Made by a program: the position numbers and the translations under genes
Origin: Anaerolineales bacterium
GTDB taxonomy: Bacteria > Chloroflexota > Anaerolineae > Anaerolineales > E44-bin32
Assembly: GCA_016927115.1 (NCBI GenBank)
Contig: JAFGNH010000028.1
Coordinates: forward strand, 1-64,000
Direction of reading: 5' to 3'
DNA length: 64,000 nt
Shown: positions 490-18,632 of the stretch, in pieces
Layout: the number at the start of each line of letters is the position of its first letter
Position numbering within the stretch: position 1 is the stretch's first letter
The notes under the pieces: generated by a model
The model's database searches: none
What the model was told of the DNA's origin: nothing
The model's input: the letters and a program-made list of their open reading frames with translations, nothing else

Positions 490-1734
490 ATGAGGAAGAA
501 AATCGAGCCGGGATTGCTGAAAATCTTCCGCTTTATCGAGATTCTGGAAGCGGTTGTCTTGCTCATGCTGGTCATCCTCCTGGAACTCCTCAACACCGAA
601 TCCCAAATCCGCCCCACAAGCCATTATTATCTGAATCTTATTGGCTGTCTGCTGCTTATCGGTTATCTTTCCTGGCCGTGGCTGATGCGAAGTCTGAAAC
701 AATTCTATTTACCAATCGCGCTCACTATTGCCACAATCACACCTATTCTGAGCAACAGGCTGTACCTGCAGATCCAGCTGGAACAGGCTCCCAACCTCCT
801 GATAACAAACGCCTGGGAACTGATCCCGCTGCTGTTTATCCCCCTGGTCATCATGGCCTGGAATTACAACCTTTCCTTTGTATTCCTTTTCTCCATGCTT
901 TCCGGCCTCTTTGATTTCCTGCTGACAACGGCTGTTGCTGTGGGTCTGCACTTGAACATGTACACGATCCTGGGTGTGATTTTTATACGCACAATCTCAC
1001 TGATGGCTGTCGGATTCCTGGTCGTTCAATTAATGGACACACAGCGGGAGCAGCGGCATAAGCTGACGGAAGCCAATCTCAAGCTCAGCCTTTATGCAAA
1101 CACTCTGGAACAGCTGGCTGTCAGCCGCGAGCGTAACAGGCTTGCGCGTGAACTGCACGACACCCTGGCACACACGCTGAGCGGCCTGGCTGTTCAGCTT
1201 GAAGCACTCAACACCGTACTTTCTCCGAAAGAAACGGAAGCAAAAATCATGCTCGAGCACGCCCTGCACACAACACGCAGCGGCCTGATGGAAACACGCC
1301 GCGCCCTCCGTGCACTGCGTGCCACGCAGCTGGACGATTTCGGACTCCGACAGGCACTCAGCAACCTTATTCAGAACGTATCGGAACGCAGTTCGCTGCA
1401 TTTCACCTCCAGCCTGCCCGATGCAATCGACTCTCTGCCGCCCCACATCGAACAGGGCGTCTACCGTATAGCACAGGAATCACTGGAAAATGTGCTTAAG
1501 CATTCCAATGCAACAGAATCCTCACTTACCATATCCTTTGAAGGCCATCTCTTCAGGATGAGAATCAAGGATAACGGCAGCGGCTTCCAGATCCACAGCG
1601 CTGGACTGAACGACCGGATGGGATTGACCGGGATGCATGAACGGGCCGCGGTACTCGGGGGCAGTCTTGCGATCACTAGCTCGCCTGAGAATGGTACTGA
1701 AATACAGCTGGAGATACCGGACTATGACTATTAG
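490..1734 (+). CDS. Membrane sensor histidine kinase, NarL/DesK (HPK7) type
   Basis: A 414-residue sensor kinase. About five hydrophobic segments occupy residues 15-175, followed by a short coiled-coil-like linker, a HisKA_3 dimerisation domain with the phospho-acceptor in RELHDTLAHTLSG (His about 223), and a HATPase_c domain with the N-box near QESLENVLKHSNA and G-box in DNGSGF and GLTGMHERA. There is no large extracellular domain, so it probably senses a signal in or at the membrane, as LiaS/DesK kinases do. Its last codons overlap the response regulator start by 11 bp, so the two are translationally coupled. Partner regulator at 1724; likely target the divergent ABC transporter (inference). 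Confidence 0.93.
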   Translation: MRKKIEPGLLKIFRFIEILEAVVLLMLVILLELLNTESQIRPTSHYYLNLIGCLLLIGYLSWPWLMRSLKQFYLPIALTIATITPILSNRLYLQIQLEQAPNLLITNAWELIPLLFIPLVIMAWNYNLSFVFLFSMLSGLFDFLLTTAVAVGLHLNMYTILGVIFIRTISLMAVGFLVVQLMDTQREQRHKLTEANLKLSLYANTLEQLAVSRERNRLARELHDTLAHTLSGLAVQLEALNTVLSPKETEAKIMLEHALHTTRSGLMETRRALRALRATQLDDFGLRQALSNLIQNVSERSSLHFTSSLPDAIDSLPPHIEQGVYRIAQESLENVLKHSNATESSLTISFEGHLFRMRIKDNGSGFQIHSAGLNDRMGLTGMHERAAVLGGSLAITSSPENGTEIQLEIPDYDY

Positions 1735-2380
1735 AGTCCTTATTTGTGACGATCAGGAAATCGTGTGTGAAGGCCTGGAAAAGATTCTGAATTCTGACCC
1801 CGATATCGAAGTTGTCGGTATCGCACGCGATGGTGCTGAAGTATTAAAGATCCTGCCGGATGCCAGGCCGGATCTGGTGCTGATGGACCTTAAAATGCCG
1901 GTAATGAACGGGGTCACAGCCTCCCGGAAGATTCACGAGAAATATCCCGGAATCCCTGTCCTCGTACTCACAACCTACGATGATGATGAATGGGTATTTG
2001 ATGCCATCCGAAGCGGTGCCTCCGGCTATCTTCTGAAAGACACTCCCCGTGAAGGATTGATCAAAGCTATCAAGGGTACTCTTTCCGGAGAATCCTTCGT
2101 AGACCCGGGCATTACACGCAAGTTGTTGACTCGCCTCGCCCGGACCGGTCCTGAACCTGAAAGACCCAGTACGCTTTCTTTCTCTGATCGCGAGATGGAA
2201 ATTCTTCAGCTGCTGGCGCGCGGCTTATCCAATGCAGAAATTGCCCAGCAGCTCTACCTCTCGGAGGGAACCGTGCGCAACTATACCAGTGCAATATTCT
2301 CAACTCTGAGTGTCTCCGATCGCACCCAGGCTGCTGTTGCCGCCATCCGCTATGGTTTCGTCAATCTGAATGACCTGTAG
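1724..2380 (+). CDS. Response regulator, NarL/LuxR family
   Basis: 218 residues: an N-terminal receiver domain (acidic pair in LICDDQEIV, phospho-acceptor Asp about 55 in VLMDLKMP, Lys in LLKDTPREG) and a C-terminal GerE/LuxR helix-turn-helix (SDREMEILQLLARGLSNAEIAQQL, then EGTVRNYTSAI) that binds DNA. I take the ATG at 1724 (MTIRVLICDDQE) because receiver homology starts there; an upstream ATG at 1637 would add 29 non-homologous residues inside the kinase gene. It should be phosphorylated by the kinase at 490-1734. The palindrome/direct repeats at 388-427 are plausible binding sites. Confidence 0.95.
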   Translation: MTIRVLICDDQEIVCEGLEKILNSDPDIEVVGIARDGAEVLKILPDARPDLVLMDLKMPVMNGVTASRKIHEKYPGIPVLVLTTYDDDEWVFDAIRSGASGYLLKDTPREGLIKAIKGTLSGESFVDPGITRKLLTRLARTGPEPERPSTLSFSDREMEILQLLARGLSNAEIAQQLYLSEGTVRNYTSAIFSTLSVSDRTQAAVAAIRYGFVNLNDL

Positions 2381-2427: not shown

Positions 2428-3471
2428 TTACCCTGTTTCAGGTGGAATCCAATTCGGAAGAGGTCCTTGAACGGGTTTTCTACCGTAAAAGATAGTTTCA
2501 AGCCACAGAAATGGATAATGCAAGAGCGGAGCTCGACGGAGCAGGATCCGGATCAGTTTATGCAGCCCGGTGTTGGGATGTGAGTAAGGGCAGACAGCCA
2601 GACAACGCCCACAGTCAGTGCCAACAATATTCCAATAACGAAAACAGGAATCCATGTTGATCTTCCAGCGATAGGCACCATCGAGCTGCTCCCGGTCGGA
2701 AAAAGAGATAGCCCGGGAGGGACAATTTTCCGCACAGCGTTTGCATATTCTACAGAATCTGATCATGGAAGAATCGCCCACACGTTCATCAGGAATCAGG
2801 GGGAGATCTGTAGAAACAATACTGATTCGAACACGGGGGCCCTGTGATGGTGTCATCAGGAGCCCCATCCGCCCTATTTCACCTAATCCGGCATCACGCG
2901 CCACCAGAGGGGCGATCACATGGTAATTACCATCAATATGGGCACGGGCATCGTACCCCAGACGGGCGATAAAATTCTTCAGCTGCAGAGCAATTAACGC
3001 TGCATTGGCATACTGCTTTGAGGACTCCATCACAACAGGTACCGCAGGTGCAGCGGCTATAAACCTGCGATTCATTTCTACAGTGAAAGCCAGTGCAAAA
3101 GAGTGAGAGAGGCGCCCGGCCTTCCCTCGTCGTTCCTTACGGCCCAGAATGGAATAAATATGATAGGGCTCAAGCCGGGTGATCCCAACATCCAGGGCGC
3201 CATAATATCGTGCAAGCTCTTTCAGAAAACGACTGGCACGCCCGGGATCGAGCGCCACCTTCTCTACTCCGGTATTCGCCTCCACAAAAGCACCAAGATC
3301 CTCACATAAATCAAAGCTTCCCAGCGCAGAAGCGAACCCGAGTGTATCAGCTTCTTTCGCTTCCGGAGATAATAAGCCCGGCAGCTTTCGAATGGTTTCG
3401 TCTATTCGAAGATTCTCAGGACGACGTGCATAATACTCCAGATACGCCTCTGTATCGGGTTCCAACTCCAT
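2428..3471 (-). CDS. rdhA-like: RdhA-like corrinoid/iron-sulfur reductive dehalogenase homologue, no Tat signal
   Basis: 347 residues as read from the ATG at 3471. The core matches reductive dehalogenase catalytic subunits: the block LGYDARAHIDGNYHVIAPLV, then AGLGEIGRMGLLMTP, GPRVRISIVSTDLPL, and two ferredoxin-type motifs, CX2CX2CX3CP (CRICKRCAENCP) and CX10CX2CX3CP ending GTDCGRCLAVCPYS, the spacing typical of RdhA. Family members bind a corrinoid and two 4Fe-4S clusters and reduce organohalides; the substrate here is unknown. There is no twin-arginine signal. The frame continues upstream of the ATG as FDERDIPFSR, which is RdhA-like, to a TAA at 3535-3537; the only possible earlier start is a rare ATT at 3531. 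It is shorter than most RdhAs (450-550 residues). Preceded by an RdhB-like gene. QueG is a distant relative but lacks these blocks. Confidence 0.85.
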   Translation of the reverse strand: MELEPDTEAYLEYYARRPENLRIDETIRKLPGLLSPEAKEADTLGFASALGSFDLCEDLGAFVEANTGVEKVALDPGRASRFLKELARYYGALDVGITRLEPYHIYSILGRKERRGKAGRLSHSFALAFTVEMNRRFIAAAPAVPVVMESSKQYANAALIALQLKNFIARLGYDARAHIDGNYHVIAPLVARDAGLGEIGRMGLLMTPSQGPRVRISIVSTDLPLIPDERVGDSSMIRFCRICKRCAENCPSRAISFSDREQLDGAYRWKINMDSCFRYWNIVGTDCGRCLAVCPYSHPNTGLHKLIRILLRRAPLLHYPFLWLETIFYGRKPVQGPLPNWIPPETG

Positions 3472-3534
3472 TCTCGAAAACGGAATATCCCGCTCATCAA
3501 ATTGTGTATTAGGAATTTCAGACTCGACAATTTT

Positions 3535-3792
3535 TTACCGGAATGGAAAGAACATCAATCCCACTATGATCAATGCCGCTGCACCTGTAACAAGGTTTAA
3601 CCCTGCCTGGATTTCTCCTGGAAGAAAGAAAAAGAGTATTACAGTACCTGTAAAAAAAAGAAACGCCATCGCACTTAGCATTGCTGCCCGTACTTCATGC
3701 TCCAGGAAGGATTGAATTCCAAAAACCAGGAAAAGGACTCCGATAAGGAGCCCTGCCACCGGCATAATGAGAAGCCAAGGTTCAGTTAACAC
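3535..3792 (-). CDS. rdhB-like: RdhB-like small membrane anchor protein
   Basis: 85 residues with three hydrophobic helices (about 8-27, 35-57, 62-82). The stretch SFLEHEVRAAM after helix 1 resembles the SF-E-E--A signature between helices of RdhB proteins such as PceB, which are also about 75-105 residues with three helices and anchor RdhA to the membrane. GTG start at 3792 (MLTEPWLL) preceded by AGGAG at suitable distance. It sits immediately upstream of the RdhA-like gene in the same frame, separated only by its TAA, so the two are surely co-transcribed. The identification rests on size, topology, the short motif and the neighbour, because RdhB sequences are poorly conserved. Confidence 0.65.
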   Translation of the reverse strand: MLTEPWLLIMPVAGLLIGVLFLVFGIQSFLEHEVRAAMLSAMAFLFFTGTVILFFFLPGEIQAGLNLVTGAAALIIVGLMFFPFR

Positions 3793-6850: not shown

Positions 6851-8218
6851 ATGGGTCAGAAAGGACAGAACCAGTCTATGGGCAAAATAACACATGTAAT
6901 CAAAAGAAGTGGCGCACAGGTCCCCTTCAACCCGGATCGCATCGCCAATGCAATTTACCGTGCTGCTGTCGCCGTCGGTGGACGGGACAAGGAACGCTCA
7001 CAGCGCCTGGCAGAAAAAGTTGTGACGTATCTGGAAGAGCATTATGGAGAGGGAACCGCTCCCCAAATCGAAGAAATTCAGGATGCAGTGGAAAAAATCC
7101 TGATCGAAAACGGCCATGCTTCGGTCGCCAAAGCATACATCCTGTATCGTGAAGAACGGGCACAGAAGCGTCAGGAAAAAGCCCGGCGTGCTTCAATCCC
7201 GTCTGAAAATGTACCCTGGGCAAAAATCTGGGGAGTTCTCGATTGGGCCAGCTCACGCGGCCTGGATTCCATCTCTGCCCTGAACCGTCGGATTGAGCAG
7301 AATGAATTTCCTCATATTGTTCACGAATCCGAAGCAGCCTATGAAGCTGATCTGGATATGGCCGCAGAAATGGCGCTGGGAAAAATTGAAAAGCTCAGGA
7401 TGATCTTCATCAGCGGGCCTTCTTCTTCCGGGAAAACAACAACAACGATCAAACTCGGTGAACGGCTGCAAAAACACGGCCTCAAGCTGATCGCACTCAA
7501 CGTTGATAATTACTTCTTTGATCTCGAAATGCATCCCAAAGATGAATTCGGTGACTATGATTTTGAGACTCCTCAGGCTCTTGATCTGGAACTGATTAAT
7601 CAGCACTATTCAGAATTAATCGAAGGGCACGAGGTTAAAATCCCGTTCTATGACTTCAAGACCGGATCCCGTAAACTCGACCAGACACCTATGAAACTGG
7701 CCAGTGATGAGATCCTCCTCATCGACAGCCTGCATGGATTGTATCCTCCAATGACAGCCGGGATCGACCCGGACCGCATGTTCAAGCTGTACCTGGAGCC
7801 GCTGCTGCAGATGCGCGGCCCGGATGATGATTACATACGCTGGACAGACCTTAGGCTGATGCGCCGTATGCTGCGTGATGCCAAATACAGGGCTTACAAC
7901 CCCCAGCAGACACTGGAACACTGGCATTATGTACGTGCCAGCGAGCTGCGGAATATCATCCCTTACATCAATACAACGGATTATATTGTCAACACAGGGA
8001 TGCCCTATGAACTCCCAATCTACCGACCCATGCTGCTGGAATACTTCGAAAAATGGAATACAGAGTATGTTGATGATCCGCTGCATGAAGACGCCTATGA
8101 CCGTGCAAGCAGAGTGTATCGAATACTGAAAGCCGTTCACGCTGTGGAAGATGACAGTTCAATTCCCGCCAGTTCTGTTCTCCGTGAATTTATCGGCGGC
8201 AGCTGCTACGAATATTAG
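6851..8218 (+). CDS. ATP-cone domain fused to uridine kinase/phosphoribulokinase-like P-loop kinase
   Basis: 455 residues. Residues about 10-100 form an ATP-cone (ITHVIKRSGAQVPFNPDRI ... HASVAKAYILYREER), the nucleotide-sensing domain of NrdR and ribonucleotide reductases. The rest is a uridine-kinase-family domain with Walker A GPSSSGKTTTT, NVDNYFFD (the substrate-binding Asp loop of uridine kinase), and LLIDSLHGLYPP. It should phosphorylate a nucleoside or small sugar alcohol, possibly under allosteric control by ATP/dATP; substrate not determinable. Archaeal 2-phosphoglycerate kinases are also ATP-cone fusions, but the YFFD-type motif points to the uridine kinase family. The second ATG at 6878 (MGKITHVIKRSG) is the homologous start and may be the real one; a weak AAAGGA lies upstream. 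Ends in a strong hairpin. Confidence 0.88.
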   Translation: MGQKGQNQSMGKITHVIKRSGAQVPFNPDRIANAIYRAAVAVGGRDKERSQRLAEKVVTYLEEHYGEGTAPQIEEIQDAVEKILIENGHASVAKAYILYREERAQKRQEKARRASIPSENVPWAKIWGVLDWASSRGLDSISALNRRIEQNEFPHIVHESEAAYEADLDMAAEMALGKIEKLRMIFISGPSSSGKTTTTIKLGERLQKHGLKLIALNVDNYFFDLEMHPKDEFGDYDFETPQALDLELINQHYSELIEGHEVKIPFYDFKTGSRKLDQTPMKLASDEILLIDSLHGLYPPMTAGIDPDRMFKLYLEPLLQMRGPDDDYIRWTDLRLMRRMLRDAKYRAYNPQQTLEHWHYVRASELRNIIPYINTTDYIVNTGMPYELPIYRPMLLEYFEKWNTEYVDDPLHEDAYDRASRVYRILKAVHAVEDDSSIPASSVLREFIGGSCYEY

Positions 8219-18347: not shown

Positions 18348-18538
18348 TCAGAAAAAACCTCCAGCCTTCCTGGTGCTTGCTAATACACTCATCCAACTTC
18401 ACTTCAAACGCACCTGCATACAGTGATATTGTATCAGGGTATGTTAATCGATATGGCGAACACATGTAAGGCCCTGAAACGGAAAACGGGTATGAGCTGG
18501 CATAGTATGCGAATATTATCGAAAAATATTGGAAGAGG

Positions 18539-18632
18539 CGGGAGTGGATGGGAGTCGAACCCACCGCGGCTCTTCTGCAGACCCGCCAACGGTGTTGAAG
18601 ACCGCGGAGCCCACCGGGACTCAACCACCCCC
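18539..18632 (-). tRNA. selC: tRNA-Sec(UCA), selenocysteine
   Basis: 94 nt on the minus strand. Acceptor stem of 8 bp (GGGGGTGG with CCACTCCC), anticodon stem GCGGT/ACCGT with loop CTTCAAC giving anticodon TCA (18596-18598), a long variable arm (about TGGCGGGTCTGCAGAAGAGCC), and a 5-bp T-stem GTGGG/CCCAT with loop TTCGACT. The TGAGTCCCGGTGGGCTCC D-arm sequence and the 8+5 stem pattern are hallmarks of bacterial selC. CCA is not encoded (the 3' flank reads CCTC). It decodes UGA as selenocysteine when SelA, SelB and SelD and a SECIS element are present; none of those is in the window. Confidence 0.95.

Follow-up and report, generated by a model that had tools for sequence, protein, structure and literature searches.

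An apparent rdhBA pair in an Anaerolineales genome is very probably a hybrid putative reductive dehalogenase gene interrupted by a premature stop codon

The first 64,000 nucleotides of contig JAFGNH010000028.1 of an Anaerolineales bacterium (GCA_016927115.1), which make up the window analyzed here, contain two neighboring open reading frames (ORFs) that the initial annotation had read as a compact rdhBA pair in which the anchor is a subunit of its own. Our analysis indicates that the locus is very probably one hybrid gene, encoding an RdhB-like membrane anchor followed by the RdhA part of a putative reductive dehalogenase, that is interrupted by a premature TAA in the linker between the two domains (Table 1). 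Both the odd BA order and the short RdhA of the supposed pair are explained by such a cut. The gene would thereby belong to a known, uncharacterized family whose intact members have, in our estimation, an even chance of being quinol-linked dehalogenases. For the copy in the window itself, we somewhat favor a real and recent nonsense mutation that abolished or strongly reduced its function.

Table 1. Positions of the features at the locus within the window
Feature	Positions	Strand	Description
Upstream ORF	3792..3535	-	85 aa, GTG start
Downstream ORF	3471..2428	-	347 aa, ATG at 3471; same frame as the 85-aa ORF
Ancestral single frame, hybrid TMH-RdhA	2431..3792	-	454 codons, 1 interruption; N-terminally complete homologues are one ORF
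N-terminal anchor, three predicted TM helices	3535..3792	-	Hydropathy, charge bias, helices in the model; ends at the TAA
TAA stop in the anchor/catalytic linker	3535..3537	-	Sense codon in all aligned homologues
Stop-to-first-ATG stretch KIVESEIPNTQFDERDIPFSR	3472..3534	-	Coding in homologues; contains the conserved DER block
RdhA catalytic domain	2431..3471	-	Putative corrinoid fold, two 4Fe-4S motifs, C-terminal amphipathic helices matching the PceA menaquinone site
Fe-S cluster motifs	2586..2754	-	CX2CX2CX3CP (C347, C350, C353, C357) and CX10CX2CX3CP (C383, C394, C397, C401)

The ORF calls agreed with the two reading frames of the initial annotation in position, strand, and shared frame, and an AGGAG-like sequence lies 8-9 nt 5′ of the GTG start of the upstream one. 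The division into two genes was not confirmed, since the frame from 3792 to 2431 (minus strand) is open except for the single TAA and free of frameshifts, since the stretch between the ORFs encodes a conserved RdhA segment (IPNTQFDERDIPFSR), and since N-terminally complete relatives are single ORFs. When the TAA is written as X, the frame reads anchor-X-KIVESEIPNTQFDERDIPFSRMELEPDTEAY and continues into RdhA. In an alignment of 43 hybrids, the column of the TAA, located in the linker just past the third transmembrane (TM) helix, is occupied by a sense codon in all the other sequences. The D99-E100-R101 block is invariant among the hybrids and absent from a product begun at the ATG at 3471, this first ATG past the stop being located downstream of the conserved FDERDI block. 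A scan for promoters and terminators at the locus gave nothing above shuffled sequences, and a 32-base piece compared with viral contigs had no match.

The survey of the bacterium's own order, in which 55 of 400 genomes gave a match at E < 1e-40, revealed hybrids in some 40 genomes, as single frames of ~445-580 codons from stop to stop; contig fragments, one masked stretch, and RdhAs devoid of TM helices were left out of this count. All N-terminally complete relatives (~36 from the order and further loci from four additional phyla) are uninterrupted, and homologues combining three TM helices and RdhA in one frame were present in Melioribacteraceae, Neomarinimicrobiota, Spirochaetia, Deltaproteobacteria, and Sabulitectum MAGs. 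The window copy is the only hybrid match with an internal stop in the own-order survey, and a phylum-wide draw agreed, yielding no hybrid with a stop. Tat-type RdhAs of the order (L024, L026, and L068) are immediately followed by a small TM ORF, the usual AB order. With its relatives fused and the true rdhAB pairs of the order running A then B, we rejected an rdhBA operon as the identity of the locus. A genuine two-gene arrangement would require separate anchor and catalytic polypeptides that reassemble in the membrane, with translation of the catalytic one re-initiating after the stop or beginning at a rare start codon. This would fit a stop that falls within a linker (~15 of 455 codons) between two complete domains, the retention of key residues in both halves, and the example of PceA2B2, in which two distinct chains form the anchor and the catalytic subunit. 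However, the split is unique among the hybrid homologues found, 21 codons separate the stop from the first ATG, which has no clear ribosome-binding site and whose use would sacrifice the FDERDI block, and there is no ATG, GTG, or TTG in between, so that we consider this scenario improbable. Should the TAA nevertheless be functional, a hybrid dehalogenase would recently have been split into a cytoplasm-facing "BA" reductive dehalogenase.

Further candidates for split copies, all of them catalytic-only ORFs from the order, were discarded: three are cut by contig edges (L019, L070, and L071), one contains masked bases (L082), and four (L063-L066) belong to a TM-less RdhA clade with no small TM neighbor. 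The latter proteins (from G278, G329, G294, and G363) are RdhA-like, 378-387 aa long, lack a Tat motif and TM helices, and are probably cytosolic; their position near the hybrids in the tree (91/74) is unsure. The only other interrupted RdhA-type match in the relatives search is a distant one with a single in-frame TGA (G016:C75:19262-20032). Within the intact hybrids, L069 (G200:C11) displays a tandem pentapeptide expansion of the DERTI block in the linker, ahead of DERTIMFAR (INERTINERTINERTIDERTIDERTIMFAR). No relative of the window copy above ~52% identity was found.

This architecture is that of the hybrid RDases described by Atashgahi 2019 (PMC6797604), which have three N-terminal TM helices with an EXE motif between TM1 and TM2, neither a Tat signal nor an rdhB, and a length of ~450 aa, and whose table includes Chloroflexi bacterium entries; the earliest example came from a single-cell genome related to Desulfatiglans (Jochum et al. 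2018). The locus shares with them the three TM helices, the EXE motif, the missing Tat signal, both Fe-S motifs, the similar length, and, with the upstream TM ORF counted into the frame, the lack of a separate or adjacent rdhB. The helices, their order, and the frame match the hybrid fusion, but in the window copy this fusion, which holds in all N-terminally complete relatives, is broken by one TAA. What sets the window copy apart is this TAA after the anchor and the residues E432 and T433 in its C-terminal helix.

We then focused on the identity of the catalytic part. The reductive dehalogenase model TIGR02486 matches it with an E value of 2.4e-44 and 152.5 bits, slightly below the curated cutoff of 160.35, and this match bears out the earlier description of conserved RdhA blocks; both cluster motifs are likewise as described. 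The same model recognizes all 35 hybrids at E < 1e-3. In the catalytic part, Pfam finds nothing but Fe-S domains, and its reductive dehalogenase model PF13486 matches 6 of the 35 homologues. Profile matches to solved chains were strongest for NpRdhA (3e-63), followed by SmPceA (3e-53) and DhPceA (3e-49), with QueG at 1e-7. An AlphaFold2 model of the read-through frame, built from nine sequences and of modest confidence (pLDDT 60, pTM 0.54), retrieved PceA and NpRdhA structures in Foldseek (E values of 7e-14 to 5e-12) far ahead of QueG (1.5e-5); the similarity is one of fold, and corrinoid binding and halide release by the domain are putative. In a maximum-likelihood tree of 53 rows with RdhA and QueG references, 28 hybrids including the window copy form one clade (100/99), while QueG, a distant likeness in its corrinoid/Fe-S fold (5d6s, 5d08), forms a separate one (100/100). 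The window copy also lies apart from the Tat-exported RdhA/RdhB pairs and the soluble catabolic RdhA, and the plasmid-borne references from Sulfurospirillum, Dehalococcoides, Comamonas (BhbA), Nitratireductor, and Jannaschia are all placed outside the hybrid clade. Given this tree and a score of 34.6 bits against the QueG model TIGR00276, whose cutoff is 200 bits, we rejected a QueG identity, in line with the initial assignment of the protein as RdhA-like.

To map residues, the 35-sequence profile was aligned to the solved chains, with 48 added to the DhPceA chain numbering. Y261 and R322 correspond to Y246 and R305 of SmPceA, to which the roles of proton donor and partner residue have been ascribed, and both are invariant among the hybrids; all eight cluster cysteines are retained in the window copy. 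In DhPceA, the C-terminal helices bind menaquinone via K489, H495, R499, and D515, and Y520 takes part in the proton path as well (PMC10624902). The profile alignment pairs H495, R499, and D515 with H411, R415, and D432 of the hybrids, and Y520 pairs with Y436 by spacing. H411 is invariant, and R415, D432, and Y436 are conserved in 40, 41, and 41 of the 42 other hybrids, respectively; the window copy keeps H411, R415, and Y436 and carries the changes D432E and D433T. These retained menaquinone-contact residues support a quinol link of the hybrids without proving it, because the His and Arg, missing in BhbA, are shared by several other RdhAs, and the H/R/D/Y set also occurs in some non-hybrid RdhAs.

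It is conceivable that the hybrids are related corrinoid Fe-S enzymes other than dehalogenases, such as epoxyqueuosine reductases or enzymes removing a group other than halide. The weak similarity to QueG (35 bits with TIGR00276), a hybrid-specific HIDGNY block unlike characterized RdhAs, and the lack of a known activity in the hybrid clade, for which the literature consulted reports none, would all agree with this. On the other hand, QueG is excluded by the tree, a QueG is already encoded elsewhere in the genome (C129), and the RdhA-type catalytic Tyr and Arg are invariant, which makes a non-dehalogenase function rather unlikely in our view. Besides that QueG, the RdhA/QueG-like set of the genome comprises only one RdhA, the window copy, and a protein at C133 (G000:C133:612-1064, L105). 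The latter is an unclear QueG/RdhA-like Fe-S protein of 332 aa with two cluster motifs and weak similarity to the RDH model (36.5 bits), distinct from both the hybrid and the QueG of the genome.

The anchor is predicted to comprise TM helices at residues ~6-30, 34-55, and 59-80, with an EHE motif at residues 31-33 in the first loop, a position at which 34 of 43 hybrids have EXE. Across the 43 homologues, the mean number of Lys and Arg residues is 0.4 at the N terminus, 2.9 in loop 1-2, 0.6 in loop 2-3, and 2.6 after TM3, a bias that predicts an N-out, C-in topology with the catalytic domain in the cytoplasm. Corrinoid/Fe-S domains without a Tat signal are expected to remain cytoplasmic, and there is no Tat (RR) motif here, so the face predicted from the charge bias fits. 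On both points, the missing signal and the cytoplasmic face, the initial annotation is thus supported.

Comparison with solved enzymes places these features in context. PceA2B2 of Desulfitobacterium hafniense (8q4h; PMC10624902) shares the corrinoid/2x4Fe-4S fold, the active-site Tyr and Arg, the His and Arg of the menaquinone pocket, and a three-helix anchor with EXE. Its PceA, however, is Tat-exported to the outside, and its PceB is a separate protein encoded downstream, whereas the locus encodes an N-terminal anchor and a catalytic face predicted to lie inside. More generally, the locus departs from respiratory rdhAB in having no Tat RR motif, an anchor upstream in the same frame, and no separate RdhB. 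NpRdhA and BhbA (4ras, 6zxu) provide the best sequence match of the catalytic core and are likewise cytoplasmic and Tat-less, but they are soluble, carry a fused reductase module, and lack both the anchor and the quinone-site His and Arg.

With the frame otherwise intact and the catalytic residues kept, the stop must have arisen recently, be tolerated, or be an error. The window copy departs from the other hybrids at 4 of 61 invariant columns, ranking first of 43, and its branch has a length of 0.88. Neither comparison demonstrates relaxed constraint, since the next two homologues, both intact, depart at 3 columns each and the QueG of the same genome has a branch of 0.99. Alternatively, the TAA could be a consensus error or the product of strain mixture in the metagenome assembly, in which case the organism's hybrid gene would be intact. 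The draft consists of 204 contigs with an estimated contamination of 6.75%, and the TAA is a single defect in an otherwise clean frame, located beside an A-run. Yet an A-run would be expected to cause an indel, and the frame, being kept on both sides, would instead point to a substitution; the contig measures 217 kb. An artefact of this kind therefore seems to us an unlikely, if appreciable, explanation, and a genuine nonsense mutation is the reading that we somewhat prefer.

The genomic context gives no hint at a substrate. Facing the hybrid gene in convergent orientation is a histidine kinase/LuxR-type regulator pair (490-2380, plus strand), and unrelated genes lie upstream; in 26 hybrid loci, this sensor kinase/response regulator pair adjoins no other hybrid, no neighbor is common across families apart from synteny shared locally by close relatives, and accessory rdh genes were not seen. 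Elsewhere in the genome, MenA (234.8 bits, over the cutoff), CobS, and a dozen B12-binding matches over the cutoff make menaquinone and corrinoid plausible cofactors. The window additionally encodes a 455-aa protein (6851-8218, plus strand) that joins an ATP-cone-like N terminus, matched by ribonucleotide reductase models, to a uridine kinase/phosphoribulokinase-like domain. It also contains a predicted tRNA-Sec gene (18537-18632, minus strand), so that some proteins of this genome may incorporate selenocysteine at in-frame TGA codons.

For the intact form, we propose that the three N-terminal helices anchor the corrinoid/2x[4Fe-4S] domain on the cytoplasmic side of the membrane. Menaquinol would then give up its electrons at a site formed by the C-terminal and anchor helices, and these would pass via the two clusters to the cob(II)/cob(I)alamin couple, where a halide (or another leaving group) would be reductively removed, Tyr261 donating the proton in partnership with Arg322. 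The family membership, the fusion in relatives, the stop, the retained ligand and catalytic residues, and the charge bias come directly from the data; we infer the quinol donor and the dehalogenation reaction, as we do the recently broken or crippled state of the allele in the window. Taken together, these results strike a spurious "rdhBA" architecture from the candidates and illustrate how a hybrid dehalogenase gene with a premature stop can mimic a two-gene operon. With a predicted cytoplasmic catalytic domain and the menaquinone contacts of PceA kept, the hybrid family may comprise quinol-linked dehalogenases that work on the inner side of the membrane.
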